A stretch of DNA of 64,000 bases. It comes from Diplonema papillatum (lineage: Eukaryota; Euglenozoa; Diplonemea; Diplonemida; Diplonemidae). The position numbers and the translations under genes were made by a program. The stretch is from the NCBI GenBank assembly GCA_030068145.1, contig JAPJBO010000019.1, forward strand, positions 124,001-188,000, read 5' to 3'. Below the pieces are notes generated by a model that worked only from the letters and a program-made list of their open reading frames with translations, made no database searches and was not told the DNA's origin. Below are positions 7,239 to 63,829 of this stretch, in pieces; within the stretch, counting starts at the first letter, position 1; each line of letters starts with the position of its first letter.

Positions 7239-7254
7239 GTATGCTGGCCCTTTA
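7239..7254 (+). promoter_or_regulatory. Predicted 5' splice site of the endonuclease V intron
   Basis: GTATGC follows codon 301 (Pro) in phase 0. A family B repeat begins within 20 bases, so the intron start has been invaded by repeat DNA. Confidence 0.55.
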
Positions 7255-43324: not shown

Positions 43325-46300
43325 ATGTTACTTGCGTCCCAACGGTTTCCGGTCCTGAAGCTATGGTTGGCGCGAGGTAATGATGGCCGAACACGGGACG
43401 TACCCGGGTGCAGCTGGCCACCTGCGGGTGCCTTCTCCCGGTTGAATGCTCGCGAGAGACACGCCAGTTCACACGCGCCTCGCTGCAGGCCCTTTGCGAA
43501 AGTTTCCGTCTGCAAGCGAGAACGTGTGTTTGGTGACGAACTTGCTGGATCCGCAGTAACCGAAGCCTTCGCAATGTTGAGCACTCATTCGGAGCAGGCA
43601 AGCTCTCGACAGCAGCTCTTCTGCTGCGAAAGGGCGGGCGAACGATTCTTCGAGGTTCGAGACCGTGTTGACCTCTCTGCCGTGAAACCCTTCAAAGGCC
43701 CGATCACCGACGAATTAATTCGGATTCTGACCGACAGAAGCCGCACAGTTGCAGACGCCGTCGACGCATTGCGACGTTATGGAATTCAAGCCGGCCACTC
43801 GCGAGTGTCTCGACAAAGGCAACAAGTCAAGTTCTCTAACTGCAAGCCGTACGAAGGCCCGATCACTGACGCCCAACGTCAAATCATGGCTGACCGACGC
43901 TGCACGATAGCTGACACCTTCGCCAAGTTAAATGCTCGTGGAATGCAAGCAAGCTATGCACAACTTCTGACATATAGAGGACGAGCTCGTTTCGCCGACC
44001 GAAAACGGTTCTTAGGATCGATCGGAGACGAACAACGACAAATCATGGCTGATCGAAGCTGCACGGTAGCACAAACCTTCGCAAAGTTAGATGCTCGTGG
44101 AATGCAAGCCAGCCACACTCAAGTTCTGTCTTATAGAGGCCGTGGTCCTTTCGCCGACCGCAAGCCGTTCTTAGGGTCGATCACTGACGAACAGAGAGAG
44201 ATCATGGCTGACAGAAGTTGCACGATAGCTGAAACCTTCGCGAAGTTAGATGCTCGTGGAATGCAAGCCAGCTATTCGCAAGTTAGTTACCACAAAGCAC
44301 GGGCCTGTGCTGACCGTATGCCGTTCCAAGGCTGGATCACTGATGAGCAACGACAGATCATGGCTGACCGAAGCTGCACGATAGCTGAAACCTTTGCAAA
44401 GCTAGATACTCGAGGAATGCGAGCCAGCTTTGCACAAGTGAAGTACCATAGAGGACGAGCCTGTAGTAGCGACCGCAAGCCGTTCCACGGCCGGATCACA
44501 GACGAACAACAACACATCATGGCGAACAGAAGCTGCACAATAGCTGAAACCTTCGCAAAGTTAGACGCTTATGGAATGCAAGCCAGCTATTCACAAGTAA
44601 CTTCTTTTAGAGAACGTGCTCGTTTCGGCGACAGCAAGCCGTTCAAAGGCCGAATCACCGACGAACAACGACACATCATGGCTGACAGAAGCTGCACAAT
44701 AGCTGAAGCCTTTGCAAGGTTACATGCTCGTGGAATGCAAGCCAGCTATTCACAAGTTGTTTCCTCCAGGGGACGGGCCCGTTACGCCGACCGCAAGCCG
44801 TTCAAAGGCTCGATCACTGACAAACAGAGACAGATCATGGCCGAGAGAAACTGCACAATAGCTGAAACATTCGCAAAGTTAGATGCTCGTGGAATGCTAG
44901 CCAGCTTTGCACAAGTTAGTTGCTTTCGAAGGCGGGCCTGTGGTGGCGACCGCAAGCCGTTCCACGGCAGGATCAGTGACGAACAGAGACAGATCATGAT
45001 TGCCGGAAACTGCACAATAGCTGAAACATTCGCAAAGCTGGATGCTCGTGGAATGCAAGCCAGCTATTCGCAAGTTGCTCATTATAAGCGCTGGGGTCAT
45101 TTTGCCGATCGCAAGCCGTTCATAGGCTCGATCACTGACGAACAGAGACAGATCATGGCTGATAGAAGCTGCACAGTAGCTGAAACCTTTGCAAAGTTAG
45201 ATGCTCGTGGAATGCAAGCCAGCTATTCACAAGTTACTCAACATAGAAGCCGGGCTTGTTTCGCCGACCGCAAGCCGTTCAAAGGGTCAATCACTGACGA
45301 ACAGAGACAGATCATGGCTGACAGAAGCTGCTCAATGGCTGAAACATTCGCAAAGTTAGATGCTCGTGGAATGCAAGCCAGCTATTCACAAGTTACTCAA
45401 CATAGAAGCCGGGCTTGTTTCGCCGACCGCAAGCCGTTCAAAGGGTCAATCACTGACGAACAGAGACAGATCATGGCTGACAGAAGCTGCTCAATGGCTG
45501 AAACATTCGCAAAGCTAGATGCTTGTGGAATGCAAGCCAGCTTTGCACAAGTTAGGTGCTTTCGAAGGCGGACCTGTGTTGGCGACCGCAAGCCGTTCAA
45601 AGGGTCAATCACTGACGAACAGAGACAGATCATGGCTGACAGAAGCTGCTCAATGGCTGAAACATTCGCAAAGTTGGATGCTCGTGGAATGCAAGCCAGC
45701 TATTCGCAAGTTGCTCATTATAAGCGCTGGGATCATTTTGCCGATCGCAAGCCGTTCATAGGCTCGATCACTGACGAACAGAGACAGATCATGGCTGATA
45801 GAAGCTGCACAGTAGCTGAAACCTTCGCAAAGTTAGATGCTCGTGGAATGCAAGCCAGCTATTCACAAGTTACTCAACATAGAAGCCGGGCTTGTTTCGC
45901 CGACCGCAAGCCGTTCAAAGGGTCAATCACTGACGAACAGAGACAGATCATGGCTGACAGAAGCTGCTCAATGGCTGAAACATTCGCAAAGCTAGATGCT
46001 TGTGGAATGCAAGCCAGCTTTGCACAAGTTAGGTGCTTTCGAAGGCGGACCTGTGTTGGCGACCGCAAGCCGTTCAAAGGGTCAATCACTGACGAACAGA
46101 GACAGATCATGGCTGACAGAAGCTGCTCAATGGCTGAAACATTCGCAAAGTTAGATGCTCGTGGAATGCAAGCCAGCTATTCACAAGTTACTCAACATAG
46201 AAGCCGGGCTTGTTTCGCCGACCGCAAGCCGTTCAAAGGGTCAATCACTGACGAACAGAGACAGATCATGGCTGACAGAAGCTGCTCAATGGCTGAAACA

Positions 46301-49300
46301 TTCGCAAAGCTAGATGCTTGTGGAATGCAAGCCAGCTTTGCACAAGTTAGGTGCTTTCGAAGGCGGACCTGTGTTGGCGACCGCAAGCCGTTCAAAGGGT
46401 CAATCACTGACGAACAGAGACAGATCATGGCTGACAGAAGCTGCTCAATGGCTGAAACATTCGCAAAGTTAGATGCTCGTGGAATGCAAGCCAGCTATTC
46501 ACAAGTTACTCAACATAGAAGCCGGGCTTGTTTCGCCGACCGCAAGCCGTTCAAAGGGTCAATCACTGACGAACAGAGACAGATCATGGCTGACAGAAGC
46601 TGCTCAATGGCTGAAACATTCGCAAAGCTAGATGCTTGTGGAATGCAAGCCAGCTTTGCACAAGTTAGGTGCTTTCGAAGGCGGACCTGTGTTGGCGACC
46701 GCAAGCCGTTCAAAGGGTCAATCACTGACGAACAGAGACAGATCATGGCTGACAGAAGCTGCTCAATGGCTGAAACATTCGCAAAGTTAGATGCTCGTGG
46801 AATGCAAGCCAGCTATTCACAAGTTACTCAACATAGAAGCCGGGCTTGTTTCGCCGACCGCAAGCCGTTCAAAGGGTCAATCACTGACGAACAGAGACAG
46901 ATCATGGCTGACAGAAGCTGCTCAATGGCTGAAACATTCGCAAAGCTAGATGCTTGTGGAATGCAAGCCAGCTTTGCACAAGTTAGGTGCTTTCGAAGGC
47001 GGACCTGTGTTGGCGACCGCAAGCCGTTCAAAGGGTCAATCACTGACGAACAGAGACAGATCATGGCTGACAGAAGCTGCTCAATGGCTGAAACATTCGC
47101 AAAGTTAGATGCTCGTGGAATGCAAGCCAGCTATTCACAAGTTACTCAACATAGAAGCCGGGCTTGTTTCGCCGACCGCAAGCCGTTCAAAGGGTCAATC
47201 ACTGACGAACAGAGACAGATCATGGCTGACAGAAGCTGCTCAATGGCTGAAACATTCGCAAAGCTAGATGCTTGTGGAATGCAAGCCAGCTTTGCACAAG
47301 TTAGGTGCTTTCGAAGGCGGACCTGTGTTGGCGACCGCAAGCCGTTCAAAGGGTCAATCACTGACGAACAGAGACAGATCATGGCTGACAGAAGCTGCTC
47401 AATGGCTGAAACATTCGCAAAGTTAGATGCTCGTGGAATGCAAGCCAGCTATTCACAAGTTACTCAACATAGAAGCCGGGCTTGTTTCGCCGACCGCAAG
47501 CCGTTCAAAGGGTCAATCACTGACGAACAGAGACAGATCATGGCTGACAGAAGCTGCTCAATGGCTGAAACATTCGCAAAGCTAGATGCTTGTGGAATGC
47601 AAGCCAGCTTTGCACAAGTTAGGTGCTTTCGAAGGCGGACCTGTGTTGGCGACCGCAAGCCGTTCCACGGCAGCATCAGTGACGAACAACGGCAGATCAT
47701 GATTGCCGGAAGCTGCACAATAGCTGAAATATTCGCAAAGTTGGATGCTCGTGGAATGCAAGCCAGCTATTCACAAGTTGCTCATTATAAGCGCTGGGGT
47801 CATTTCGCCGACCGCAAGCCCTTCAAAGGCTCGATCACTGACGAAGAGAAACAGATCATGGCTGACAGAAGCAGCACAATAGTTGAAACCTTCGCAAGGT
47901 TAGATGCTCGTGGAATGCAAGCCAGCTATTCACAAGTTACTCGACGCAGAAGCCGGTCTTGTTTTACCGACCGGAAACCGTTTATAGGGTCAATCACTGA
48001 CGAACAGAGACAGATCATGGCTGACAGAAGCTGCTCAATGGCTGAAACCTTCGCCAAGTTAGATGCTGGTGCGATGCAGTTCAGCTATTCCCAAGCTACT
48101 TCCGATAGAGGATGGGCCCGTTTCGCCGACCGCAAGCCGTTCTTAGGGTCGATAACTGACGGGCAGAGACAGATCATGGCTGACAGAAGCTGCTCAGTTG
48201 CTGAAACATTCGCAAAGCTAGATGCTCGTGGAATGCAAGCCAGCTTTGCACAAGTCAGTAGCTTCCGCAAGCGGGCCTGTGATGACGACGGCAAGTCGTT
48301 TCGAGGCCGGGTCAGGAACGAACAACGACACATCATGGCCGACCGAAGCTGCGCAATAGCTGAAACATTCGTAAAGCCAGATGAAATACAAGCCAGCGAT
48401 TCACACGTTTCCAAGTATGCAAGCCGCCGTAATTTCGGTGGCCGCAAGCCGTTCAAAGGGTCGATTACTGACGAGCAGAAACAGATCATGGCTGACAAAA
48501 GCAGCACAGTAGCTGAAACCTTCGCAAAGCTAGATGCTCGTGGAATGCAAGCCAGCTATTCACAAGTAACTCGACGCAGAAGCCGGGTTTATTACGCCGA
48601 CCGGAAACCGATCAAAGGGTCGATCACTGACAAACAACGACAGATCATGGCTGACAGAAGTCGCACACTAGCTGAAACATTCGTAAAGCCAGATGAAATA
48701 CAAGCCAGCGATTCACATGTTTCCAAGAATGCAAGCCGCAGTCGTTTCACTGACCGCAAGCCAGGGTCGATCACTGACGAACAGAGACCGATCGTGACTG
48801 AAAGAAGCCGCACGATACCTCAAACCTTCGCAAAGCTAGATGCTCGTGGAGTGCAAGCCAGCTATTCACAAGTTACTCGACTCAGAAGCCGGGCTTGTTG
48901 CTCCGACCGGAAACCGTTCATAGGGTCGATCACTGACGAACAACGACAGATCTTGGCTGACAGAAGCTGCACGATAGCTGAACCTTCCGCAAAGCTAGAT
49001 GGTCGTGGAATGCAAGCCAGCCCTTCTCAAGTTACTCAACACAGAAACCGGGCTTGCTTCGCCAACCACAAACCGTTCAGCTGCACAATACCTGCTAGTT
49101 TCGCCAAGTTACATGCTGGCGGGATGCAAGCTAGCTATTCCCAAGCTACTTCCGATACAGGACAGGCCCGTTTCGCCGGCCGCAAGCCTGTCAGCGGGTC
49201 GATCACTGACGAGCAGAAACAGATCACGCCTTACAGAAGCTGCTCAATAGCTGAAACCCTGACGAAGTTAGATGCTGGTGGGATGCAAGCCAGCTATTCA

Positions 49301-51877
49301 CAAGTTGGTTCCTATAGGCGACGGGCCCGTTTCGCCGACCGCAAGCCGTTCATAGAGTTGATAACTGATGAGCAGAAACAGATCATGGCTGACAGAAGCT
49401 GCTCAATGGCTGAGACTTTCGCCAAGTTAGATGCTCGTGGAATGCAAGCCAGCTATTCACAAGTTAGTTCCCACCGAAAACGTCACAGTTTCGAGGACCG
49501 CAAGCCGTTCATAGGGTCGATCACTGACGAGCAGAGACAGATCATGGCTGACAGAAGCTGCTCAATAGCTGAAACCCTGACGAAGTTAGATGCTGGTGGG
49601 ATGAAAGCCAGCTATTCACAAGTTGCTTCCTATAGGCGACGGGCCCGTTTCGCCGACCGCAAGCCGTTCATAGAGTTGATAACTGATGAGCAGAAACAGA
49701 TCATGGCTGACAGAAGCTGCTCAATGGCTGAAACTTTCGCCAAGTTAGATGCTCGTGGAATGCAAGCCAGCTATTCACAAGTTAGTTCCCACCGAAAACG
49801 TCACAGTTTCGAGGACCTCAAGCCGTTCATAGGGTCGATCACTGACGAGCAGAGACAGATCATGGCTGACAGAAGCTGCTCAATAGCTGAAACCCTGACG
49901 AAGTTAGATGCTGGTGGGATGAAAGCCAGCTATTCACAAGTTGCTTCCTATAGGCGACGGGCCCGTTTCGCCGACCGCAAGCCGTTCATAGAGTTGATAA
50001 CTGATGAGCAGAAACAGATCATGGCTGACAGAAGCTGCTCAATGGCTGAAACATTCGCAAAGCTAGATGCTCGTGGAATGCAAGCCAGCTATTCACAAGT
50101 TACTCAACATAGAAGCCGGGCTTGTTTCGCCGACCGCAAGCCGTTCAAAGGGTCAATCACTAACGAACAGAGACAGATCATGGCTGACAGAAGCTGCTCA
50201 ATGGCTGAAACATTCGCAAAGTTGGATGCTCGTGGAATGCAAGCCAGCTATTCACAAGTTACTCAACATAGAAGCCGGGCTTGTTTCGCCGACCGCAAGC
50301 CGTTCAAAGGGTCAATCACTGACGAACAGAGACAGATCATGGCTGACAGAAGCTGCTCAATGGCTGAAACATTCGCAAAGCTAGATGCTTGTGGAATGCA
50401 AGCCAGCTTTGCACAAGTTAGGTGCTTTCGAAGGCGGACCTGTGTTGGCGACCGCAAGCCGTTCAAAGGGTCAATCACTGACGAACAGAGACAGATCATG
50501 GCTGACAGAAGCTGCTCAATGGCTGAAACATTCGCCAAGTTAGATGCTCGTGGAATGCAAGCCAGCTATTCACAAGTTAGTTCCCACCGAAAACGTCACA
50601 GTTTCGAGGACCGCAAGCCGTTCATAGGGTCGATCACTGACGAGCAGAGACAGATCATGGCTGACAGAAGCTGCTCAATAGCTGAAACCCTGACGAAGTT
50701 AGATGCTGGTGGGATGCAAGCCAGCTATTCACAAGTTGCTTCCTATAGGCGACGGGCCCGTTTCGCCAACCGCAAGCCGTTCACAGGGTTGATCACTGAC
50801 GAGCAGAAACAGATCATGGCTGACAGAAGCTGCTCAATAGGTGAAACTTTCGCCAAGTTAGATGCTGGTGGGATGCAGGCCAGCTACTACCAAGTTGCTT
50901 CCTACAGAGAACGGGCCCGTTTCGCCAACTGCAAACCGTTCAAAGGCTCGATCTCCGACGAACAACGTGAGGTGATGGGTGACCGAAGCTGCACAATAGC
51001 TGAAACCTTTGTGAAGTTGGCCGGTCGCGGGATGCAGGCCAGCCGTTCTCAATTGTACAAATGGAGGATGTACGGCAAGTATGCCGCTTGGCCGCCTTGT
51101 AGCAGCCCAATAACACAGGAGCAGGAGATGATAATGGCCGACCGTAGCTGCACCATTGCTGAAAGTTTCGCAAAGTTGGATGCTCGCGGGATGGTGGCCA
51201 GCTTGAGTCAATTGCGTAGATGGCGGAACCGAAGCACAGCGACAACTGAATCTTTGAGGGACTCACCAGAAGTAATGGAGCCACAGAACTCTGAGGGAAG
51301 CCAGAGTTGGCTTCACTCTGACGCTGCGGATGGCGTGTCAAGGTGTGCAAATTCAACGACCATCAGAGAGTGCAACCCTGCAAGTAAACCAGCCCGCAGA
51401 CAAAGAGCGCGCAATCAAACAAACGACGATAATTCTCGCGCCGGAGTAACGCCAATTTCGAAGCAGTCCGAGCAGTCTTTTAAGAAGGTGCTGCATTCGT
51501 ACACCGTCCCACTCGTTGGTACGAAGGGAACCCGGGACAGTGCGATTATTTCGGCAAGTCGTGCTCGCAGGTCGTGCAACCTGCGGCAGAGGGGCGAACC
51601 AGAGCAGATGAAAGACGCGTATGCTGATGCCGTCTACCGTATTAAGCTTCGGGGCAACGCTAAAGGCCAACCTTTTGTCACACGTGGCGGCTTTTGCCGT
51701 CGCTGTCGTGTTGTCAACGGGGTTGCTGTCAGTTGGGCAGATGTCTGTCTAAGGCACAAGCCAGCTTCAGAGTCAACTGCACGCAGAGTGAACAGACCCG
51801 ACCAACAGCGACTCAGCGAAGAAGGGTCAGAGGTCTTGCATCACCAAGCCATTGCCGACAACGTTGTACAGCTATGA
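43325..51877 (+). CDS. Tandem 53-residue helical-repeat protein 1 (48 repeats), unknown family
   Basis: About 2850 residues. The start MLLASQRFPVLKLWLARG is chosen because genes 2 and 3 begin MLLASRRSAVLKPWLARRG. After about 120 residues containing two very degenerate repeats (FSRLNARERHAS and EAFAMLSTHSEQ), 48 repeats run from 43682 to about 51247. Consensus core in order: RKPFKGSITDEQRQIMADRS, then C(T/S)(I/M)AETFAKLDARG, MQASYSQV, and a variable tail ending FAD. This fits three helices with a helix-turn-helix-like spacing, though the turn is longer than in classical HTH. Positions 44-46 vary (SRQ, LTY, LSY, SYH, KYH, TSF, VSS, SCF, AHY, TQH, RCF, SSH, ASY, YKW, RRW...), followed by (R/K)x(R/W). 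Repeats 30, 32, 33 and 35 carry small deletions, all in frame. The last two repeats match those of genes 2 and 3, but the conserved C-terminal module is lost: a 361-bp deletion at 51667 fuses the frame to what is downstream spacer in gene 2. Confidence 0.85.
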   Translation: MLLASQRFPVLKLWLARGNDGRTRDVPGCSWPPAGAFSRLNARERHASSHAPRCRPFAKVSVCKRERVFGDELAGSAVTEAFAMLSTHSEQASSRQQLFCCERAGERFFEVRDRVDLSAVKPFKGPITDELIRILTDRSRTVADAVDALRRYGIQAGHSRVSRQRQQVKFSNCKPYEGPITDAQRQIMADRRCTIADTFAKLNARGMQASYAQLLTYRGRARFADRKRFLGSIGDEQRQIMADRSCTVAQTFAKLDARGMQASHTQVLSYRGRGPFADRKPFLGSITDEQREIMADRSCTIAETFAKLDARGMQASYSQVSYHKARACADRMPFQGWITDEQRQIMADRSCTIAETFAKLDTRGMRASFAQVKYHRGRACSSDRKPFHGRITDEQQHIMANRSCTIAETFAKLDAYGMQASYSQVTSFRERARFGDSKPFKGRITDEQRHIMADRSCTIAEAFARLHARGMQASYSQVVSSRGRARYADRKPFKGSITDKQRQIMAERNCTIAETFAKLDARGMLASFAQVSCFRRRACGGDRKPFHGRISDEQRQIMIAGNCTIAETFAKLDARGMQASYSQVAHYKRWGHFADRKPFIGSITDEQRQIMADRSCTVAETFAKLDARGMQASYSQVTQHRSRACFADRKPFKGSITDEQRQIMADRSCSMAETFAKLDARGMQASYSQVTQHRSRACFADRKPFKGSITDEQRQIMADRSCSMAETFAKLDACGMQASFAQVRCFRRRTCVGDRKPFKGSITDEQRQIMADRSCSMAETFAKLDARGMQASYSQVAHYKRWDHFADRKPFIGSITDEQRQIMADRSCTVAETFAKLDARGMQASYSQVTQHRSRACFADRKPFKGSITDEQRQIMADRSCSMAETFAKLDACGMQASFAQVRCFRRRTCVGDRKPFKGSITDEQRQIMADRSCSMAETFAKLDARGMQASYSQVTQHRSRACFADRKPFKGSITDEQRQIMADRSCSMAETFAKLDACGMQASFAQVRCFRRRTCVGDRKPFKGSITDEQRQIMADRSCSMAETFAKLDARGMQASYSQVTQHRSRACFADRKPFKGSITDEQRQIMADRSCSMAETFAKLDACGMQASFAQVRCFRRRTCVGDRKPFKGSITDEQRQIMADRSCSMAETFAKLDARGMQASYSQVTQHRSRACFADRKPFKGSITDEQRQIMADRSCSMAETFAKLDACGMQASFAQVRCFRRRTCVGDRKPFKGSITDEQRQIMADRSCSMAETFAKLDARGMQASYSQVTQHRSRACFADRKPFKGSITDEQRQIMADRSCSMAETFAKLDACGMQASFAQVRCFRRRTCVGDRKPFKGSITDEQRQIMADRSCSMAETFAKLDARGMQASYSQVTQHRSRACFADRKPFKGSITDEQRQIMADRSCSMAETFAKLDACGMQASFAQVRCFRRRTCVGDRKPFHGSISDEQRQIMIAGSCTIAEIFAKLDARGMQASYSQVAHYKRWGHFADRKPFKGSITDEEKQIMADRSSTIVETFARLDARGMQASYSQVTRRRSRSCFTDRKPFIGSITDEQRQIMADRSCSMAETFAKLDAGAMQFSYSQATSDRGWARFADRKPFLGSITDGQRQIMADRSCSVAETFAKLDARGMQASFAQVSSFRKRACDDDGKSFRGRVRNEQRHIMADRSCAIAETFVKPDEIQASDSHVSKYASRRNFGGRKPFKGSITDEQKQIMADKSSTVAETFAKLDARGMQASYSQVTRRRSRVYYADRKPIKGSITDKQRQIMADRSRTLAETFVKPDEIQASDSHVSKNASRSRFTDRKPGSITDEQRPIVTERSRTIPQTFAKLDARGVQASYSQVTRLRSRACCSDRKPFIGSITDEQRQILADRSCTIAEPSAKLDGRGMQASPSQVTQHRNRACFANHKPFSCTIPASFAKLHAGGMQASYSQATSDTGQARFAGRKPVSGSITDEQKQITPYRSCSIAETLTKLDAGGMQASYSQVGSYRRRARFADRKPFIELITDEQKQIMADRSCSMAETFAKLDARGMQASYSQVSSHRKRHSFEDRKPFIGSITDEQRQIMADRSCSIAETLTKLDAGGMKASYSQVASYRRRARFADRKPFIELITDEQKQIMADRSCSMAETFAKLDARGMQASYSQVSSHRKRHSFEDLKPFIGSITDEQRQIMADRSCSIAETLTKLDAGGMKASYSQVASYRRRARFADRKPFIELITDEQKQIMADRSCSMAETFAKLDARGMQASYSQVTQHRSRACFADRKPFKGSITNEQRQIMADRSCSMAETFAKLDARGMQASYSQVTQHRSRACFADRKPFKGSITDEQRQIMADRSCSMAETFAKLDACGMQASFAQVRCFRRRTCVGDRKPFKGSITDEQRQIMADRSCSMAETFAKLDARGMQASYSQVSSHRKRHSFEDRKPFIGSITDEQRQIMADRSCSIAETLTKLDAGGMQASYSQVASYRRRARFANRKPFTGLITDEQKQIMADRSCSIGETFAKLDAGGMQASYYQVASYRERARFANCKPFKGSISDEQREVMGDRSCTIAETFVKLAGRGMQASRSQLYKWRMYGKYAAWPPCSSPITQEQEMIMADRSCTIAESFAKLDARGMVASLSQLRRWRNRSTATTESLRDSPEVMEPQNSEGSQSWLHSDAADGVSRCANSTTIRECNPASKPARRQRARNQTNDDNSRAGVTPISKQSEQSFKKVLHSYTVPLVGTKGTRDSAIISASRARRSCNLRQRGEPEQMKDAYADAVYRIKLRGNAKGQPFVTRGGFCRRCRVVNGVAVSWADVCLRHKPASESTARRVNRPDQQRLSEEGSEVLHHQAIADNVVQL
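43682..51247 (+). repeat. 159-bp coding tandem repeat array, 48 units
   Basis: Unit length is 159 bp except five units shortened by 3, 6, 6, 6 and 45 bp. Units at both ends (1-9, 47-48) are diverged while the centre is highly uniform, the pattern left by repeated unequal exchange. Confidence 0.95.
45746..47653 (+). repeat. 318-bp higher-order repeat, six dimers in gene 1
   Basis: Repeats 14-25 alternate strictly between the TQH type (ASYSQVTQHRSRACFAD) and the RCF type (ASFAQVRCFRRRTCVGD). The dimers are almost identical at the DNA level, so the amplified unit is two repeats, not one. A different dimer (SSH/ASY) is repeated at 49340-49975. Confidence 0.95.
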
Positions 51878-53820: not shown

Positions 53821-54063
53821 GGTAAGCGGTAACAACACAGAAACGTCTTACTTACAAGCCTCCTCTCCTCTTCCTTACACTTTGCTAAGCTACAGACCTT
53901 CCTACAGGGAAGGGGAGGTCAAGCAGTTTCAAGAGAGAGCCTCGCTGTCCTGGTTCTCATCGCCGGTGTGCACCCGCTCAGTGCAGACCCACACTGCGAC
54001 GAGCTACTTTGTGAGCACTTAGAATGTCACGCTTTGCATGGCAGGCAACAGAAACAGCCGAAA

Positions 54064-56892
54064 ATGTTACTTGCGTCACGACGCTCTGCTGTCCTGAAGC
54101 CGTGGTTGGCGCGACGAGGACATGACGACACGACGCGGGACGTGCCTGGACACAGCTGGCTACCTGCAGGTGTCTTCTCCCAGCTGAATGCTCGTGGGAG
54201 GCACGCCAGTACACATGCGCCCGGCTGCAGACCCTTTGCGAAACTTTCCGTCTGCAGGCGAGAAAGTGTGTTCAGCGACGAACCGGCTGCATACACAGTG
54301 GCAGGAGAGGCCTTCTCTAGGCTGAGCTCGCGGCAGCCGCCCTTCTTCACCCGCCCGAATGCGGGCGAACAATTCTTCGCTTCTCGAGGCCGTGTCGACC
54401 CGTCCTGCCTGAAACCGCTGAAAAGCTCGATCAATGACGAACAAAATCGGAGCATCACCGACAGAAGTCGCACTGTCCCAGAAGCCGCCGCCGGTTTGCC
54501 AACAAGTGGAAAACACGCCAGTTGCTCGCGAGTGCTTCAACACAGGCAACCAGCAAGGTTCTCTAGTTGCAAGCCGTTCGTAGGCCGGATCACTGATTCC
54601 CAACGACAGATCATGGCCGATCGAAGCTGCACGATAGCTGAAACCTTCGTAAAATTAGATGCGCGTGGAATGCAAGCCAGCTATTCCCAAGTTAGTCATT
54701 ATAGAGGGCGGGCTCGTTTCGCCGACCGCAAGCCGTTCAAAGGCTTGCTCACTGACGAACAGAGACAGATCATGGCTGACAGAAGCTGTACAATAGCTGA
54801 AACCTTCGCAAAGCTAGATGCTCGTGGAATGCAAGCCAGCTATTCACAAGTTACTCAACATAGAAGCCGGGCTTGTTTCGCCGACCGCAAGCCGTTCAAA
54901 GGGTCAATCACTGATGAACAGAGACAGATCATGGCTGACAGAAGCTGTACAATAGCTGAAACCTTCGCAAAGCTAGATGCTCGTGGAATGCAAGCCAGCT
55001 ATCCGCAAGTTCGTCATTATCGAAGCCGTGGCCTTTTCGCCGACCGCAAGCCGTTCAAAGGCTCGATCACTGATGAACAGAGACTGATCATGGCTGACGG
55101 AAGCTGCAGGATAGCTGAAACCTTCGCAAAGTTAGATGCTCGTGGAATGCAAGCCAGCTATCCGCAAGTTACTCATTATAGAAGCCGTGGCCTTTTCGCC
55201 GACCGCAAGCCGTTCAAAGGCTCGATCACTGATGAACAGAGACTGATCATGGCTGACGGAAGCTGCAGGATAGCTGAAACCTTCGCAAAGTTAGATGCTC
55301 GTGGAATGCAAGCCAGCTATTCCCAAGTTAGTTATTATAGAGGGCGGGCTCGTTTCGCCGACCGCAAGCCGTTCAAAGGCTTGCTCACTGACGAACAGAG
55401 ACTGATCATGGCTGACAGAAGCAGTACAATAGTTGAAACCTTCGCAAAGCTAGATGCTCGTGGAATGCAAGCCAGCTATTCACAAGTTACTCAACATAGA
55501 AGCCGGCCTTGTTTCGCCGACCGCAAGCCGTACAAAGGGTCAATCACTGACGAGCAGAGACAGATCATGGCTGACAGAAGCTGCTCAATGGCTGAGACTT
55601 TCGCAAAGTTAGATGCTCGTGGAATGCAAGCCAGCTATTCACAAGTTAGTTCCCACCGAAAACGTCACAGTTTCGAGGACCGCAAGCCGTTCATAGGGTC
55701 GATCACTGACGAGCAGAGACAGATCATGGCTGACAGAAGCTGCTCAATAGCTGAAACCCTGACGAAGTTAGATGCTGGTGGGATGCAAGCCAGCTATTCA
55801 CAAGTTGCTTCCTATAGGCGACGGGCCCGTTTCGCCAACCGCAAGCCGTTCACAGGGTTGATCACTGACGAGCAGAAACAGATCATGGCTGACAGAAGCT
55901 GCTCAATAGGTGAAACTTTCGCCAAGTTAGATGCTGGTGGGATGCAGGCCAGCTACTACCAAGTTGCTTCCTACAGAGAACGGGCCCGTTTCGCCAACTG
56001 CAAACCGTTCAAAGGCTCGATCTCCGACGAACAACGTGAGGTGATGGGTGACCGAAGCTGCACAATAGCTGAAACCTTTGTGAAGTTGGCCGGTCGCGGG
56101 ATGCAGGCCAGCCGTTCTCAATTGTACAAATGGAGGATGTACGGCAAGTATGCCGCTTGGCCGCCTTGTAGCAGCCCAATAACACAGGAGCAGGAGATGA
56201 TAATGGCCGACCGTAGCTGCACCATTGCTGAAAGTTTCGCAAAGTTGGATGCTCGCGGGATGGTGGCCAGCTTGAGTCAATTGCGTAGATGGCGGAACCG
56301 AAGCACAGCGACAACTGAATCTTTGAGGGACTCACCAGAAGTAATGGAGCCACAGAACTCTGAGGGAAGCCAGAGTTGGCTTCACTCTGACGCTGCGGAT
56401 GGCGTGTCAAGGTGTGCAAATTCAACGACCATCAGAGAGTGCAACCCTGCAAGTAAACCAGCCCGCAGACAAAGAGCGCGCAATCAAACAAACGACGATT
56501 ATTCTCGCGCCGGAGTAACGCCAATTTCGAAGCAGTCCGAGCAGTCTTTTAAGAAGGTGCTGCATTCGTACACCGTCCCACTCGTTGGTACGAAGGGAAC
56601 CCGGGACAGTGCGATTAATTCTTCAAGTCGTGCTCGCAGGTCGTGCAACCTGCGGCAGAGGGGCGAACCAGAGCAGACGAAAGACGCGTATGCTGATGCC
56701 GTCTACCGTATTAAGCTTCGGGGCAACGCTAAAGGCGCGCCGAATGAGCCACTACGGGCTGCAAGAATTGCGGCGGACGACGCCGATGGTTCTACAAAGC
56801 AAAAGGTGCCGACGCTGGCCGCTGGGATCACGTGGCAGCTTCGCCTGGAGGAGTCAGTCGCTCTCGCATTGTCAGCAGGGTCACAGCGCTAA
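54064..56892 (+). CDS. Tandem 53-residue helical-repeat protein 2 (12 repeats), unknown family
   Basis: 942 residues from MLLASRRSAVLKPWLARRG, conserved with gene 3. The N-terminal 115 residues hold two degenerate repeats (VFSQLNARGRHAS, AFSRLSSRQPP). Repeats start at 54409. Their 44-46 residues in order are LQH, SHY, TQH, RHY, THY, SYY, TQH, SSH, ASY, ASY, YKW, RRW. Position 20 also varies (R or G in MADRSC / MADGSC). The last two repeats use Leu-Tyr-Lys-Trp and Arg-Arg-Trp in place of the usual tail. The C-terminal 190 residues are basic and contain SYTVPLVGTKG, ARRSCNLRQRGEPEQ and a final LAAGITWQLRLEESVALALS, shared with gene 3, so this is probably the complete form. No signal peptide or membrane segment, so an intracellular, possibly nuclear, protein is likely. 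Third positions are far less G/C-biased than in the radial spoke or endonuclease genes. Confidence 0.85.
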   Translation: MLLASRRSAVLKPWLARRGHDDTTRDVPGHSWLPAGVFSQLNARGRHASTHAPGCRPFAKLSVCRRESVFSDEPAAYTVAGEAFSRLSSRQPPFFTRPNAGEQFFASRGRVDPSCLKPLKSSINDEQNRSITDRSRTVPEAAAGLPTSGKHASCSRVLQHRQPARFSSCKPFVGRITDSQRQIMADRSCTIAETFVKLDARGMQASYSQVSHYRGRARFADRKPFKGLLTDEQRQIMADRSCTIAETFAKLDARGMQASYSQVTQHRSRACFADRKPFKGSITDEQRQIMADRSCTIAETFAKLDARGMQASYPQVRHYRSRGLFADRKPFKGSITDEQRLIMADGSCRIAETFAKLDARGMQASYPQVTHYRSRGLFADRKPFKGSITDEQRLIMADGSCRIAETFAKLDARGMQASYSQVSYYRGRARFADRKPFKGLLTDEQRLIMADRSSTIVETFAKLDARGMQASYSQVTQHRSRPCFADRKPYKGSITDEQRQIMADRSCSMAETFAKLDARGMQASYSQVSSHRKRHSFEDRKPFIGSITDEQRQIMADRSCSIAETLTKLDAGGMQASYSQVASYRRRARFANRKPFTGLITDEQKQIMADRSCSIGETFAKLDAGGMQASYYQVASYRERARFANCKPFKGSISDEQREVMGDRSCTIAETFVKLAGRGMQASRSQLYKWRMYGKYAAWPPCSSPITQEQEMIMADRSCTIAESFAKLDARGMVASLSQLRRWRNRSTATTESLRDSPEVMEPQNSEGSQSWLHSDAADGVSRCANSTTIRECNPASKPARRQRARNQTNDDYSRAGVTPISKQSEQSFKKVLHSYTVPLVGTKGTRDSAINSSSRARRSCNLRQRGEPEQTKDAYADAVYRIKLRGNAKGAPNEPLRAARIAADDADGSTKQKVPTLAAGITWQLRLEESVALALSAGSQR

Positions 56893-59086
56893 TTGGCGCA
56901 GACGTCCAGTCCATGCGGAAGCCATCTTCAACATCAGCTGAGGCGGCCAGATCAAGTCGCGCCTCAACAGCGGGGATGAGTTGAAGGTCCCGTATCACAA
57001 GCTAAAGCCGACTTCATTCTCACACTCCGGAAGGCTTCGGAACCCATGCTGAGTCGAGCTACAGCTTCTAAAGTGCTGAACCTGGGGGAAGACTGGCCAA
57101 CCTTTTGTCACACGTGGCGGCTTTTGCCGTCGCTGTCGTGTTGTCAACGGGGTTGCTGTCAGTTGGGCAGATGTCTGTCTAAGGCACAAGCCAGCTTCAA
57201 AGTCAACTGCACGCAGAGTGAACAGACCCGACCAACAGCGACTCAGCGAAGAAGGGTCAGAGGTCTTGCATCACCAAGCCATTGCCGACAACGTTGTACA
57301 GCTATGAAGGGCTTCGAAATCCTTGCCGAGTCAGGTTTGCAGCTCTATCGCAAGTATGCGGTCGCTGGAGGTGGCCACACCGAAACTGCTGCAAAACCCG
57401 CCTCGGTATTGTCACTGATCAGCATGGTATCATGAAGCGACTTCCGACTCGTCGCTGTCGTGTCGTCGTCTGGTTCGCAGCGCTATTCGGCGCAGACGTT
57501 CTGTTCGTGGGGGAAATCGCAGAAGGGGCCTCCTAGACTGCTATCACATGTGTTCGGCTACTGGAGGGTGGTCACAGCCAAGTGCCGCAACAAGAACAAG
57601 CGCCCCATTCTTGCGTGTTGTGCGGCTGTGTCGTGGCAGTGAGAACACTGCCCAGGCAACTAGCCAACATGGTATCACGGATAATTTCCTCCGACGCTAT
57701 CGTGTTACCTAGCTCCAACTCGGCACTGTCGGAGACCTGGTTATTCGATCCGATGTACTTTCGCCTACTCAGCTCACCTATACCCACCGTGGTTGCTGCC
57801 CTACGTGGCCTTGCGTAGAATACACAACATGTAAGCAACCCATCGCCCTGGTGTCCGGCCTAACCTGCTTCACGCACACAGACCCACTTCATACAGCGAT
57901 CTTCCAGTGCAAAAGGCAGACAGCCAACACACAGTCTTGTAGTGCAGTCATTCATCAGTCAGTTTGAAGGTGGTCGTAGCATTTGCCCTACGTGCCAATG
58001 CAGAGTCACCATCGCGTCAGCAACTTCGTACGACTTCGTCGCATTCGTAACACTGCCCACATCATCACTCGGGCGCTCTGTCCTTCCAGCTACAGGCAAT
58101 GCCCACCGCAGTTGTAATGCTATGTGCATCAGCTCGTGCAATGTCATCGCACCGCCCTATGCTTCCCCACGTGCCCGGACAGCTTCATGATCAGCTCCTG
58201 CAGTGTCATAACACTGCCGGCTTAATGCAGTGCCATGCATTCACATGAATCGCCCGCATGCTCGTGCCGCAGCATCATTGCTGTCAGTGCTTACCTGCTG
58301 CCCTGTCCACGCAGCCTCGTGCAGTTTTTTTGCCGCCCTCGTATGCCCATGGTATTTGGGGAGAAGAGCTTGCAAACGAACGAACGCACAACCAACAACA
58401 AACAACGCACAACCAACACGAGGCGTCGCCTTTTGCGCGCTGACGCCGAAATTTTGTTGTTGCGCCGGCGTCAAGGGGTTGGTCTTTGCCGACCGAACCC
58501 GCCTGAATCGTTTTTCATTACACTTTCTCAACAAGCACGATGCCTCTTGTCCTTTCACCCAAAGCCGCCCGTACTTCGGGCGCACCATCTCTCATGCTTA
58601 TGCTAGTAGCCAGTTCGCCACGCGCGCAGTTTGCTTTCCCTTCATCTATTTTTATCAGGCGTGCGGATGCGTCAACGCAACAGTTTTTGAAAGGATATCG
58701 AAAGAGCGAAGGCATATTTTTCAAGCACACTTCCAATGGCGCGGAAGGCGGACCAGGGCGCAATTGTAAAACGTAGTCAGTCCGGCGCCTGAACGACCAC
58801 CAGGCAGGCGGGGCCGTTCTGTTGGGTTCCCTCCTGGGGTATCTGAGGTCGGCTGGCAGTACAAGGGTAGTGCTTGGCTCAGCTGTTGAAGTTTGCAGCA
58901 CACGCGGCGATCCAGAAGCAAATCACCCATCGATTCGTTTCTTGTCGAAGGCGGACGCCCAACAACTCGAAAGAAGGTGTTTGCAAGGGTAAGGCTCCTG
59001 GCTGCTAATGGCCGCCGTGCTGGCTCCGAGCGCAAAGCAGCTATTCGAGGGGACCAGGCTCTCCGAGCACATAGACAACTACTGGA
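56893..59086. other. Spacer between repeat genes 2 and 3, no gene supported
   Basis: From 57098 it duplicates the spacer after gene 1. 56893-57097 is the 205-base segment deleted there together with the C-terminal coding part. Confidence 0.5.
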
Positions 59087-59200
59087 CACGACGAGGTCCA
59101 GCCTCAGAAGCTGGAGTTAAAGAGGGTGTGCCCGAGTCACACCCGAAAAGCGGGTGTGCCATCCGTTTTTTTTTAGTTCCAGCTTTATCTCCAGCTTGCA
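59087..59200 (+). mobile_element. MITE-C copy 4, internally deleted
   Basis: Same insertion point as copy 3 in the duplicated spacer, with the second hairpin unit deleted. It retains the hairpin of stem CACACCCG, loop AAAAG and complement CGGGTGTG, followed by a T9 run. Confidence 0.75.
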
Positions 59201-59443
59201 GGTAAGCGGTAACAACACAGAAACGTCTTACTTACAAGCCTCCTCTCCTCTTCCTTACACTTTGCTAAGCTACAGACCTTCCTACAGGGAAGGGGAGGGC
59301 AAGCAGTTTTAAGAGAGAGCCTCGCTGTCCTGGTTCTCATCGCCGGTGTGCACCCGCTCAGTGCAGACCCACACTGCGACGAGCTACTTTGTGAGCACTT
59401 AGAATGTCACGCTTTGCATGGCAGGCAACAGAAACAGCCGAAA

Positions 59444-62400
59444 ATGTTACTTGCGTCACGACGCTCTGCTGTCCTGAAGCCGTGGTTGGCGCGACGAGGA
59501 CATGACGACACGACGCGGGACGTGCCTGGACACAGCTGGCTACCTGCAGGTGTCTTCTCCCAGCTGAATGCTCGTGGGAGGCACGCCAGTACACATGCGC
59601 CCGGCTGCAGACCCTTTGCGAAACTTTCCGTCTGCAGGCGAGAAAGTGTGTTCAGCGACGAACCGGCTGCATACACAGTGGCAGGAGAGGCCTTCTCTAG
59701 GCTGAGCTCGCGGCAGCCGCCCTTCTTCACCCGCCCGAATGCGGGCGAACAATTCTTCGCTTCTCGAGGCCGTGTCGACCCGTCCTGCCTGAAACCGCTG
59801 AAAAGCTCGATCAATGACGAACAAAATCGGAGCATCACCGACAGAAGTCGCACTGTCCCAGAAGCCGCCGCCGGTTTGCCAACAAGTGGAAAACACGCCA
59901 GTTGCTCGCGAGTGCTTCAACACAGGCAACCAGCAAGGTTCTCTAGTTGCAAGCCGTTCGTAGGCCGGATCACTGATTCCCAACGACAGATCATGGCCGA
60001 TCGAAGCTGCACGATAGCTGAAACCTTCGTAAAATTAGATGCGCGTGGAATGCAAGCCAGCTATTCCCAAGTTCGTCATTATAGAGGGCGGGCTCGTTTC
60101 GCCGACCGCAAGCCGTTCAAAGGCTTGCTCACTGACGAACAGAGACAGATCATGGCTGACCAAAGCTGCACGATAGCTGAAACCTTCGCAAAGTTAGATA
60201 CTCGTGGAATGCAAGCCAGCTATTCCCAAGTTAGTCGTCATAGAAGGTGGGCTCGTTTCGCCGACCGCACACCGTTCAAAGGCTCCTTCACTGACGACCA
60301 GAGGCAAATCATGGCTGACGCAAGCTGCACGATAGCTGAAACCTTCGCAAAGTTAGATGCTCGTGGAATGCAAGCCAGCTATTCCCAAGTTAGTAAGTAT
60401 AGAGGGCGGGCTCGTTTCGCCGACCGCAAGCCGTTCAAAGGCTTGCTCACTGACGAACAGAGACTGATCATGGCTGACCAAAGCTGCACGATAGCTGAAA
60501 CCTTCGCAAAGTTAGATACTCGTGGAATGCAAGCCAGCTTTTCCCAAGTTAGTCATCATAGAAGACGAGCTTGTTTCGCCGACCGCACACCGTTCAAAGG
60601 CTCCTTCACTGACGACCAGAGGCAAATCATGGCTGACGCAAGCTGCACGATAGCTGAAACCTTCGTAAAATTAGATGCGCGTGGAATGCAAGCCAGCTAT
60701 TCCCAAGTTAGTCATTATAGAGGGCGGGCTCGTTTCGCCGACCGCAAGCCGTTCAAAGGCTTGCTCACTGACGAACAGAGACAGATCATGGCTGACGGAA
60801 GCTGCACGATAGCTGAAACATTCGCACAGTTAGATGCTCGTGGAATGCAAGCCAGCTATTCACAAGTTACTCAACATAGAAGCCGGGCTTGTTTCGCCGA
60901 CCGCAAGCCGTTCAAAGGGTCAATCACTGACGAACAGAGACAGATCATGGCTGACAGAAGCTGCTCAATGGCTGAAACATTCGCAAAGTTAGATGCTCGT
61001 GGAATGCAAGCCAGCTATCCGCAAGTTACTCATTATAGAAGCCGAGGCCTTTTCGCCAACCGCAAGCCGTTCAAAGGCTCGATCACCGATGAACAGAGAC
61101 TGATCATGGCTGACGGAAGCTGCACAATAGCTGAAACCTTCGCAAAGTTAGATGCTCGTGGAATGCAAGCCAGCCATTCACAAGTTCGTCATTATCGAAG
61201 CCGTGGCCTTTTCGCCGACCGCAAGCCGTTCAAAGGCTCGATCACTGATGAACAGAGACTGATCATGGCTGACGGAAGCTGCACGATAGCTGAAACCTTC
61301 GCAAAGTTAGATGCTCGTGGAATGCAAGCCAGCTATCCGCAAGTTACTCATTATAGAAGCCGTGGCCGTTTCGCCAACCGCGAGCCGTTCAAAGGCTCGA
61401 TCACCGATGAACAGAGACTGATCATGGCTGACGGAAGCTGCACGATAGCCGAAACCTTCGCAAAGTTAGATGCGCGCGGAATGCGAGCCAGCTATCCACA
61501 AGTTCATAGTTATAGACGCTGGGGCCCCTTTGCCGACCGCAAGCCGTTCAAAGGATCGATCACTGACGAACAGAGACTGATCATGGCTGACGGAAGCTGC
61601 ACGATAGCTGAAACCTTCGCAAAGTTAGATGCTCGTGGAATGCAAGCCAGCTATTCACAAGTTACTCATTATAGAAGCCGTGGCCTTTTCGCCGACCGCA
61701 AGCCGTTCAAAGGCTCGATCACCGATGAACAGAGACTGATCATGGCTGACGCAAGCTGCACGATAGCTGAAACCTTCGCAAAGTTAGATGCTCGTGGAAT
61801 GCAAGCCAGCTATTCACAAGTTACTCATTATAGAAGCCGTGGCCTTTTCGCCAACCGCGAGCCGTTCAAAGGCTCGATCACCGATGAACAGAGACTGATC
61901 ATGGCTGACGGAAGCTGCACGATAGCCGAAACCTTCGCAAAGTTAGATGCGCGCGGAATGCGAGCCAGCTATCCACAAGTTCATCATTATAGACGCTGGG
62001 GCCCATTTGCCGACCGGAAGCCGTTCAAAGGATCGATCACTGACGAGCAGAGACTGATCATGGCTGACGGAAGCTGCACGATAGCTGAAACCTTCGCAAA
62101 GTTAGATGCTCGTGGAATGCAAGCCAGCTATTCACAAGTTACTCATTATAGAAGCCGTGGCCTTTTCGCCAACCGCGAGCCGTTCAAAGGCTCGATCACC
62201 GATGAACAGAGACTGATCATGGCTGACGGAAGCTGCACGATAGCCGAAACCTTCGCAAAGTTAGATGCGCGCGGAATGCGAGCCAGCTATCCACAAGTTC
62301 ATCATTATAGACGCTGGGGCCCATTTGCCGACCGGAAGCCGTTCAAAGGATCGATCACTGACGAGCAGAGACTGATCATGGCTGACGGAAGCTGCACGAT

Positions 62401-63829
62401 AGCTGAAACCTTCGCAAAGTTAGATGCTCGTGGAATGCAAGCCAGCTATTCACAAGTTACTCATTATAGAAGCCGTGGCCTTTTCGCCAACCGCGAGCCG
62501 TTCAAAGGCTCGATCACCGATGAACAGAGACTGATCATGGCTGACGGAAGCTGCACGATAGCCGAAACCTTCGCAAAGTTAGATGCGCGCGGAATGCGAG
62601 CCAGCTATCCACAAGTTCATCATTATAGACGCTGGGGCCCATTTGCCGACCGGAAGCCGTTCAAAGGATCGATCACTGACGAGCAGAGACTGATCATGGC
62701 TGACGGAAGCTGCACGATAGCTGAAACCTTCGCAAAGTTAGATGCTCGTGGAATGCAAGCCAGCTATTCACAAGTTACTCATTATAGAAGCCGTGGCCTT
62801 TTCGCCAACCGCGAGCCGTTCAAAGGCTCGATCACCGATGAACAGAGACTGATCATGGCTGACGGAAGCTGCACGATAGCCGAAACCTTCGCAAAGTTAG
62901 ATGCGCGCGGAATGCGAGCCAGCTATCCACAAGTTCATCATTATAGACGCTGGGGCCCATTTGCCGACCGGAAGCCGTTCAAAGGATCGATCACTGACGA
63001 GCAGAGACTGATCATGGCTGACGGAAGCTGCACGATAGCTGAAACCTTCGCAAAGTTAGATGCTCGTGGAATGCAAGCCAGCTTCTTCCAACTGTGCAGG
63101 TGGAGGCAGTACGGCAAGTATGCTGAGCGGGTGTCTTTCAGTGGCTCGATAGCCGACGAGCAGAAGATGATAATGGCCGACCGCAGCTGTACAATAGCGG
63201 AAACATTTATGAAGTTAGATGCTCGAGCGATGCACGCCTGCTTGAGCCAACTGCGCAGATGGCGGAATCGTAAAATAAGGAATCCTTTCAGCGACTTAAT
63301 AAACGCGACGGAACAAAACCGCTCGCATCGAAGCCGGAGGTGGCTTCAGCCCAACGCCGAAGCAGCCAGTACAAGTTGCGCAGAGTTGCCCACCATGAGA
63401 GTGTACAGCCCGGCTAATGGAGCGACCCACAAGGAATGCGCCGTAGAAACTATAAATCAATCCGCGCAGCCTCGTAGGAATAGGCTGCATTCGCGCAGCG
63501 TCCCACTCGTTGGGAAACCAGGAAGCCAGCACCGTGCGACCATGCCTGCAAAGCGTGCTCGGAAGTGGCAAAACCAGCGGCAGTGCACCGAACCAGATCA
63601 GCAGACGAGAGATGCCAAAGTGGATGCCGTCTTCCGTCACAAGTGTTGGGTAAACACTAAGAGCCCGCCCAGTGAGCTACGGGCCGCAAAGAGGGCAGCA
63701 GACGACGTCGACGGCTGTACAAAGCAACATGTGCCGAAGCTGGCCGCTGGGATCATGTGGCAACTTCGCCTTGAGGAGGCCGTCGCAGTCGCGTTATCGG
63801 CGCAGGTGCCCGCCCGATGCGAAAGCTAG
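59444..63829 (+). CDS. Tandem 53-residue helical-repeat protein 3 (22 repeats), unknown family
   Basis: 1461 residues; same start and N-terminal region as gene 2. The 22 repeats run from 59789 to about 63286, all exactly 53 residues. Their 44-46 residues in order are LQH, RHY, SRH, SKY, SHH, SHY, TQH, THY, RHY, THY, HSY, THY, THY, HHY, THY, HHY, THY, HHY, THY, HHY, CRW, RRW. Position 20 varies as well (R, Q, A, G). The C-terminal module is clearly related to gene 2 but diverged (SVPLVGKPGS, then RAAKRAADDVDGCTKQHVPK and LAAGIMWQLRLEEAVAVALS), with substitutions that keep the frame and the residue pattern, which argues that the protein is or was under selection. The gene is intact and ends 170 bases before the window edge. 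Confidence 0.87.
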   Translation: MLLASRRSAVLKPWLARRGHDDTTRDVPGHSWLPAGVFSQLNARGRHASTHAPGCRPFAKLSVCRRESVFSDEPAAYTVAGEAFSRLSSRQPPFFTRPNAGEQFFASRGRVDPSCLKPLKSSINDEQNRSITDRSRTVPEAAAGLPTSGKHASCSRVLQHRQPARFSSCKPFVGRITDSQRQIMADRSCTIAETFVKLDARGMQASYSQVRHYRGRARFADRKPFKGLLTDEQRQIMADQSCTIAETFAKLDTRGMQASYSQVSRHRRWARFADRTPFKGSFTDDQRQIMADASCTIAETFAKLDARGMQASYSQVSKYRGRARFADRKPFKGLLTDEQRLIMADQSCTIAETFAKLDTRGMQASFSQVSHHRRRACFADRTPFKGSFTDDQRQIMADASCTIAETFVKLDARGMQASYSQVSHYRGRARFADRKPFKGLLTDEQRQIMADGSCTIAETFAQLDARGMQASYSQVTQHRSRACFADRKPFKGSITDEQRQIMADRSCSMAETFAKLDARGMQASYPQVTHYRSRGLFANRKPFKGSITDEQRLIMADGSCTIAETFAKLDARGMQASHSQVRHYRSRGLFADRKPFKGSITDEQRLIMADGSCTIAETFAKLDARGMQASYPQVTHYRSRGRFANREPFKGSITDEQRLIMADGSCTIAETFAKLDARGMRASYPQVHSYRRWGPFADRKPFKGSITDEQRLIMADGSCTIAETFAKLDARGMQASYSQVTHYRSRGLFADRKPFKGSITDEQRLIMADASCTIAETFAKLDARGMQASYSQVTHYRSRGLFANREPFKGSITDEQRLIMADGSCTIAETFAKLDARGMRASYPQVHHYRRWGPFADRKPFKGSITDEQRLIMADGSCTIAETFAKLDARGMQASYSQVTHYRSRGLFANREPFKGSITDEQRLIMADGSCTIAETFAKLDARGMRASYPQVHHYRRWGPFADRKPFKGSITDEQRLIMADGSCTIAETFAKLDARGMQASYSQVTHYRSRGLFANREPFKGSITDEQRLIMADGSCTIAETFAKLDARGMRASYPQVHHYRRWGPFADRKPFKGSITDEQRLIMADGSCTIAETFAKLDARGMQASYSQVTHYRSRGLFANREPFKGSITDEQRLIMADGSCTIAETFAKLDARGMRASYPQVHHYRRWGPFADRKPFKGSITDEQRLIMADGSCTIAETFAKLDARGMQASFFQLCRWRQYGKYAERVSFSGSIADEQKMIMADRSCTIAETFMKLDARAMHACLSQLRRWRNRKIRNPFSDLINATEQNRSHRSRRWLQPNAEAASTSCAELPTMRVYSPANGATHKECAVETINQSAQPRRNRLHSRSVPLVGKPGSQHRATMPAKRARKWQNQRQCTEPDQQTRDAKVDAVFRHKCWVNTKSPPSELRAAKRAADDVDGCTKQHVPKLAAGIMWQLRLEEAVAVALSAQVPARCES
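61697..62968 (+). repeat. 318-bp higher-order repeat, four dimers in gene 3
   Basis: Repeats 13-20 alternate between THY (ASYSQVTHYRSRGLFAN) and HHY (ASYPQVHHYRRWGPFAD) types. As in gene 1, the amplified unit is a pair of repeats, but the pair is a different one. Confidence 0.95.

Follow-up and report, generated by a model that had tools for sequence, protein, structure and literature searches.

A 53-residue repeat-array family of Diplonema papillatum, putatively helix-turn-helix-like, apparently remodelled by unequal exchange and probably binding nucleic acid

Introduction

PRDM9-type zinc-finger arrays have the anatomy and evolutionary mode that we propose here for a family of repeat proteins in Diplonema papillatum, a free-living marine flagellate of a single cell. 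In the C2H2 zinc-finger arrays of PRDM9 and of KRAB proteins, tandem modules combine a fixed scaffold with a variable helix face, and the genes lie in clusters and are reshaped by unequal exchange; the Diplonema arrays appear to be like them in each of these respects. The locus is a stretch of 64,000 nucleotides (the window; C19:124001-188000, where C19 is contig JAPJBO010000019.1) that carries three adjacent genes for proteins built largely of one 53-residue repeat.

We directly observe the arrays, the constraint on their scaffold, the variable positions and the turnover of repeats. We propose, at a probability of roughly 0.5, that these genes belong to a helix-turn-helix (HTH)-like array family that has been remodelled by unequal exchange and that most likely serves to bind nucleic acid in a sequence-specific way. 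The family also extends beyond the window, an addition to the original prediction, which was made from the window alone: ~158 kb downstream of the window cluster, C19 carries a further group of related genes, with at least seven copies. Below, the window genes are cluster 1 and the downstream copies cluster 2.

Results

Three tandem genes and the turnover of their repeats

The three genes are intact, lie on the plus strand of one region of C19 and have frames open from end to end (2850, 942 and 1461 residues), all of which start with MLLAS. A hidden Markov model (HMM) of the repeat, seeded from 51 copies and counted at matches of at least 30 bits, finds 48, 12 and 22 copies in genes 1, 2 and 3, respectively. 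Open frames and HMM thus confirm the three adjacent same-strand genes with these repeat numbers that the original prediction had described, and with them the difference in array length between paralogues (48, 12 and 22 repeats); it was also right that the N-terminal start and the last two repeats are common to all three. Among the 48 repeats of gene 1, three carry indels and one aligns over its last 33 positions only. Tandem Repeats Finder reports the 159-bp period at 43842-49079, 49100-51006, 54569-56078 and 59949-63083. The features of the locus, with array edges given in the HMM register, are as follows.

43325-51877, + strand: gene 1, 2850 residues from the shared ATG, 48 repeats
43679-51244, + strand: gene 1 repeat array, from a diverged first repeat to the last repeat
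51245-51667, + strand: gene 1 C-terminal module, near-identical to gene 2 until the duplication breakpoint
51668-51874, + strand: gene 1 tail past the breakpoint, where the sequence differs from the C-termini of genes 2 and 3
51665-56272, + strand: tandem duplication copy 1, gene 2 upstream DNA and most of gene 2
54064-56892, + strand: gene 2, 942 residues, 12 repeats
54406-56313, + strand: gene 2 repeat array
56314-56889, + strand: gene 2 C-terminal module, without a Pfam match
57095-61652, + strand: tandem duplication copy 2, gene 3 upstream DNA and the 5' half of gene 3
59444-63829, + strand: gene 3, 1461 residues, 22 repeats
59786-63283, + strand: gene 3 repeat array
63284-63826, + strand: gene 3 C-terminal module, with relatives in gene 2 and in the second cluster, without a Pfam match

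Genes 2 and 3 together with their upstream DNA form a 4.6-kb tandem duplication (51665-56272 versus 57095-61652, 93% identity), and their first 168 codons are the same at the DNA level. The C-terminal module had been assigned to genes 2 and 3, which do share it, but it is not limited to them: gene 1 has 147 codons in common with gene 2, with five nucleotide differences, ending at a breakpoint at ~51665-51667. At the 5' side, homology between genes 1 and 2 begins ~20 nt upstream of the shared ATG (43305-43325; 54040-54064), and a GGCAG located 16-24 nt 5' of the ATG in both genes is a possible splice-acceptor site.

In gene 1, 9 of 34 pairs of repeats spaced two apart have the same DNA sequence, as do 5 of 18 such pairs in gene 3 and none of 8 in gene 2, while adjacent repeats never do (0 of 37, 0 of 9 and 0 of 19 in genes 1, 2 and 3). 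Frequent identity two repeats apart, with none between neighbours, is a sign that recent exchange in genes 1 and 3 proceeded in two-repeat units.

A module of three probable helices with a variable face

Repeat statistics rest on 72 copies from cluster 1 (52 distinct in DNA, 49 in protein), leaving out repeats with indels or an HMM score below 85, and on 53 copies from cluster 2 (50 and 49), leaving out those that score below 60, have indels or stops, or have a register running past the frame start. Across the 98 distinct repeats, columns 10, 23 and 39 are S/T in at least 80%, and each is followed three positions later by an E/Q column (13, 26 and 42). Three such S/T-x-x-E/Q pairs arise by chance in 0.018% of 100,000 column permutations (p = 0.00018). 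The boxes at 10-13, 23-26 and 39-42 resemble capping boxes of the type found at helix starts, and the 53-residue module is therefore most likely made of three helices, with starts at 10, 23 and 39. By Chou-Fasman averaging, 10-19 and 24-38 come out as helix, in agreement with the first two, but 41-45 carry strand letters and do not match the third.

The description of the repeat backbone as nearly fixed holds for most of the module and fails at positions 6, 44, 45, 46, 48, 50 and 51, where cluster 1 entropy exceeds 1.8 bits; among the residues at the cluster 1 variable sites are not only R, K, Q, S, T and H but also C, L, P and Y. In cluster 2 the most variable positions are 41, 53, 51, 40, 44, 52, 15 and 45, with 31, 36, 42 and 47 near-fixed. 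When positions 39-52 are laid on a helix, the variation seems to point to nearly one side in three data sets: 165 degrees for cluster 1 entropy (permutation p = 0.11), 172 degrees for cluster 2 entropy (p = 0.002) and 171 degrees for the changes between the cluster 2 proteins DIPPA_18614 and DIPPA_70220 (p = 0.01). The capping boxes and this one-sided variation of helix 3 agree with the regular helical module of the original prediction. Periodicity tests were null for helices 1 and 2 in both clusters and for helix 3 of cluster 1 (p 0.51-0.99).

The segment of the putative third helix is basic. Segment 39-53 has a net charge of +2.6 and +2.8 per repeat in the two clusters and segment 10-22 of about -1, and R47 is present in 48 of 52 (cluster 1) and 49 of 50 (cluster 2) distinct DNA copies. 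Positions 41, 44, 45, 48 and 51 together display 74 distinct residue combinations in 125 repeats, versus 8 at five positions picked as conserved.

Selection on the scaffold and on the third helix

The selection tests assume independent sites and ignore gene conversion. On minimum spanning trees of distinct repeats, the ratio of the scaffold nonsynonymous rate to the pooled synonymous rate is 0.22 in cluster 1 (p = 2e-58) and 0.33 in cluster 2 (p = 9e-56), and values of 0.20-0.36 across comparisons indicate that the scaffold is under purifying selection. A ratio near 1 between paralogues, together with an absence of transcripts, had been named as a result that would refute the original prediction; the scaffold is far from such a ratio, but the module at the C-terminus of genes 2 and 3 may be close to it (0.81, p = 0.13). 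Compared with the second cluster, the same module has a ratio of 0.68 in gene 3 (p = 0.005) and of 0.91 in gene 2 (p = 0.51). None of three sets of helix-3 sites shows a significant excess on the spanning trees, where their ratios range from 1.08 to 1.22 in cluster 1 and from 0.72 to 1.14 in cluster 2.

The paralogues DIPPA_18614 and DIPPA_70220 were compared repeat by repeat over six full repeats, leaving out their degenerate mid-protein repeat and a weak N-terminal match. The seven positions of high cluster 1 entropy (6, 44, 45, 46, 48, 50 and 51), a set fixed by those entropy values but tested after the pair alignment had been seen, change at 0.266, which is 2.0-fold the rate of pooled synonymous sites (0.133, p = 0.007) and above that of the other nonsynonymous sites (0.074, p = 1.4e-7); random seven-position sets match it in 0.2% of draws. 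The set 40, 41, 44, 45, 48 and 51, settled after seeing the pair, changes at 0.426 (p = 2.6e-7 versus pooled synonymous sites) and exceeds its own synonymous sites 2.05-fold (p = 0.09). On a plain reading, these rates suggest that the scaffold is kept and the helix-3 face free in both clusters, and that the face has been driven in one pair. Positive selection on the variable face throughout was considered and rejected, as the ratio exceeds 1 in one pair and the trees lie at ~1 or less.

Comparison with described families

Single repeats were scanned against Pfam as a set of 62 chosen copies, each alone and at E up to 1 (one is cut by a locus end). Six families matched, with a best E of 0.059, and no HTH, Myb, HTH_psq or PPR family was among them. 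No NCBIfam family reached its cut-off for the four proteins compared, and a PDB sequence search with the repeat profile gave a best E of 1.3, to a non-HTH entry. The Pfam, NCBIfam and PDB comparisons, which yield no fitting family, are consistent with the earlier view that the repeat lies outside named families. Whole-protein matches (Pfam LTXXQ, Cu2_monoox_C, Med15_fungi, End_tail_spike and others, and those in NCBIfam) were rejected because they are sums over copies or fall below cut-off; in 17 of the 21 Pfam rows no stretch passes E 10 alone. Neither single repeats nor residues 1-500 of gene 3 gave anything useful as queries in protein searches, which were able to return only proteins of 0.55-1.75 times the query length.

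The repeat was also compared with a panel of 12 from Escherichia coli K-12, made up of six HTH proteins or fragments and six non-HTH controls. Some entered the panel in part: InsI with its N-terminal 120 residues, and InsF, InsD and InsK with their catalytic parts. The HTH fragment of IS911 OrfA came top of the 12 in both HHalign (18.0, above 25 of 25 column shuffles) and hmmsearch, without reaching significance, and its HHalign match is colinear over repeat positions 5-46; the other HTH proteins scored 10.0-16.2 in HHalign. We regard this as a lead for a homeodomain-like fold, not as membership. A comparison with profiles of further sequences had its top score with a transposase-type HTH set, but the letters of those sequences are unverified and it is not used as evidence.

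Extent of the family on C19

The genome searched comprises 271 Mb in 2910 contigs. The gene 3 protein has 24 matches in it (31 of 33 candidates scored), every one on C19: the window genes, the second cluster at ~346-374 kb and one fragment at 250 kb. In-frame stops occur in 4 of the 24 and, judged by coordinates, lie at match edges outside the long open frames. A degenerate L-D-A-R-G-M-x-A pattern has 80 matches in the genome (backward control, 1), and C19 carries all of them: the window genes account for 46, the second cluster for 33 and the fragment at 250 kb for 1. As all pattern matches fall there, the family appears to be limited, in this assembly, to one ~207 kb stretch of C19.

The second cluster comprises two short genes of two repeats each (346160-347827 and, in two frames that overlap, 350101-351692), three arrays located at 354-364 kb, and the genes of DIPPA_18614 and DIPPA_70220. 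The second and third of these arrays start within a repeat, right after a stop, and the third shifts frame at ~363.2 kb. One second-cluster array was compared for the C-terminal module and has it too, with the conserved final part. Within the cluster, at C19:370791-371594, lies a frame that contains a long aspartate run.

In the nr database, DIPPA_18614, DIPPA_70220 and DIPPA_18647, D. papillatum proteins from the same contig that are all annotated as hypothetical, were the only matches at E of at most 0.1 among 8000 protein candidates scored. The start of DIPPA_18647 corresponds to the copy near 346 kb and its end to the copy near 351 kb, so this gene model seems to fuse two tandem copies. 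No prior description of the 53-residue repeat family was found in literature titles and the beginnings of abstracts, a search that excluded subscription papers, preprints and supplements, and the three DIPPA names were absent from the literature searched.

Other features of the window and of the genome

Elsewhere in the window, an endonuclease V gene (PF04493, 4e-37) lies at 6336-7271 (+), and 5' of it (1943-6240) are several partial copies of its 5' coding end amid a 12-bp AAAAGAGGACAC satellite. This arrangement resembles that of D. papillatum genes with repeated 5' parts described in PMC10161547. A 1078-residue frame at 35982-39218 (+) ends in a Swi5 domain (2.6e-6); the low-complexity region before it is long and includes a 168-bp repeat (38133-38788). 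The window also contains a carbon-nitrogen hydrolase at 12973-13911 (+; 5e-20), an RNase H/reverse transcriptase-like frame at 21029-22264 (-; 2e-11) and a Radial spokehead-like protein at 29779-31443 (+; 1e-102).

A 52-nt fragment of small-subunit rRNA lies at 26751-26802 (-). A short 18S stretch has 235 genome matches with at most one mismatch, on many contigs among the first 100 matches listed, and eight of them form a 63-bp tandem array on another contig (C320). Scattered 28S pieces in the genome, and an rDNA unit of ~7.6 kbp, are reported in PMC10161547; the rDNA unit in the present assembly is 7628 bp. A Diplonema spliced-leader stretch has 656 genome matches at up to two mismatches (control, 0).

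Discussion

Tandemly duplicated D. papillatum genes encode long arrays of one 53-residue module. Each module would fold as three helices (~10-20, 23-35 and 39-51) in a homeodomain-like HTH, in which a near-fixed scaffold would hold helix 3 and leave its outward face (40, 41, 44, 45, 48 and 51) free to change. Unequal exchange would lengthen, shorten and reshuffle the arrays, so that every gene would come to carry a different series of helix-3 faces, and the successive basic helix-3 surfaces would most likely bind nucleic acid in a sequence-specific manner, as zinc-finger, TALE and PPR arrays do. Basic third helices in a row, on a scaffold that stays fixed while their faces change, look like a modular nucleic-acid reader, but the fold, the binding and the code of the Diplonema arrays are what we infer from sequence.

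Several results weigh against this proposal, besides the fact that in the paralogue pair one site set was settled, and the other tested, after the pair had been seen. The best HHalign probability to any HTH protein is 7.4% (P 0.005 before correction for 12 targets), and three of the six non-HTH controls score 15.2-16.1, with InsD also beating 25 of 25 shuffles. An earlier periodicity test over 39-51 gave p = 0.51 in cluster 1 and 0.043 in cluster 2, and some variable sites lie off the face: position 6 in cluster 1, positions 3, 15 and 53 in cluster 2, and positions 25 and 53 in the paralogue pair. Over all edges of the spanning trees the face evolves no faster than synonymous change (0.72-1.22), and in cluster 2 the entropy-chosen set is below the synonymous rate (0.72, p = 0.0002). 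As the tree rates are not above synonymous and the ratio exceeds 1 in one pair only, most of the data fit relaxation. The C-terminal module, finally, shows no significant constraint in two of three comparisons.

A variable face on a fixed scaffold shows only that a surface changes, and the helix-3 faces could instead be a variable surface for protein or peptide partners, with no nucleic acid involved; the C, L, P and Y among the cluster 1 variable residues would suit such a role. Segment 39-53 is, however, strongly basic in both clusters, R47 is near-invariant and the pattern is, weakly, like that of DNA-binding HTH domains, and we consider protein binding unlikely. That the arrays read nothing at all, the repeat being a coding minisatellite in which a conserved structural or spacer module is copied by unequal exchange and the helix-3 face is merely unconstrained, strikes us as rather improbable. 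Face rates close to synonymous on the spanning trees, frequent identity of units two apart in genes 1 and 3, one second-cluster copy that shifts frame in its array and two that start mid-repeat after a stop are what a minisatellite would predict; the strong scaffold constraint, the fully open window frames of 942 to 2850 codons and a paralogue-pair face that outpaces pooled synonymous sites are not.

The arrays could also be specificity factors acting on the fragmented and edited mitochondrial transcripts of diplonemids. Such a role would bear on a question raised in PMC12699882, where the selection of editing and joining sites in Diplonema mitochondria is presumed to fall to protein trans-factors still to be identified; the paper favours PPR and three other families. 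The proteome of that study, as described there, excluded repetitive-element models without transcription evidence, so absence of the family from it says little. The N-termini have six K/R in their first 40 residues and no acidic residue before position 20 (gene 1), 21 (genes 2 and 3) or 36 (three second-cluster genes). Their amphipathic moment, on the other hand, is not above that of shuffled sequences in six of seven cases (p 0.19-0.68), and the seventh (p = 0.01) was read from a non-annotated start; a clear mitochondrial presequence was not upheld for these N-termini. We judge a mitochondrial function very improbable.

We return to sequence-specific binding of nucleic acid by HTH-like arrays, which we prefer. 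A stronger version, that these are undescribed modular readers of diplonemids with a helix-3 face under diversifying selection and a natural code, and in its boldest form guides of mitochondrial transcript assembly or editing, is one that we put forward only tentatively and rather doubt. If the arrays do read nucleic acid, the 125 repeats compared would amount to a natural experiment, with the reading residues set apart from the scaffold at the outset, and would help in working out a recognition code and in making programmable binding proteins. The abundant marine diplonemids would then gain candidate fast-evolving targeting proteins for the nucleus or the mitochondrion.

Among the closest known systems is the homeodomain-like HTH of transposases of the IS3/IS911 OrfA type, with which the module would share a three-helix pattern, a basic helix 3 and, in InsE and the second-cluster repeats, a helix 3 in the style of SQL..WR; unlike it, the Diplonema modules are arrayed up to 48 times and have no significant Pfam, NCBIfam or PDB match. 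Myb/SANT domains are also tandem units of ~52-53 residues, and hydrophobic or aromatic positions 9, 28 and 46 of the Diplonema repeat, spaced by 19 and 18, recall their three Trp. Position 9 is I/V and position 28 F, however, with 46 mostly Y/H in cluster 1 and W in 45 of 50 copies in cluster 2; the arrays are also far longer than the usual two or three Myb repeats and have no Pfam Myb match. In contrast to C2H2 zinc-finger arrays, the Diplonema proteins use an unrelated module with no zinc-finger match, and no effector domain was recognised. The comparisons with Pipsqueak, PPR and TALE proteins made in the original prediction find no family match, and they stand as analogies. TALE (34-residue) and PPR (35-residue) arrays likewise have a fixed backbone and few variable positions per repeat, but the Diplonema period is 53 residues, its variable sites run along the last helix and its single repeats have no Pfam match to them; the main variable sites are 44-51, as against residues 12-13 in TALE. 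Pipsqueak proteins carry tandem HTH motifs of ~50 residues, although single Diplonema repeats do not match Pfam HTH_psq. While lying outside every family tested, the Diplonema arrays appear to resemble the known array readers in how they would work.

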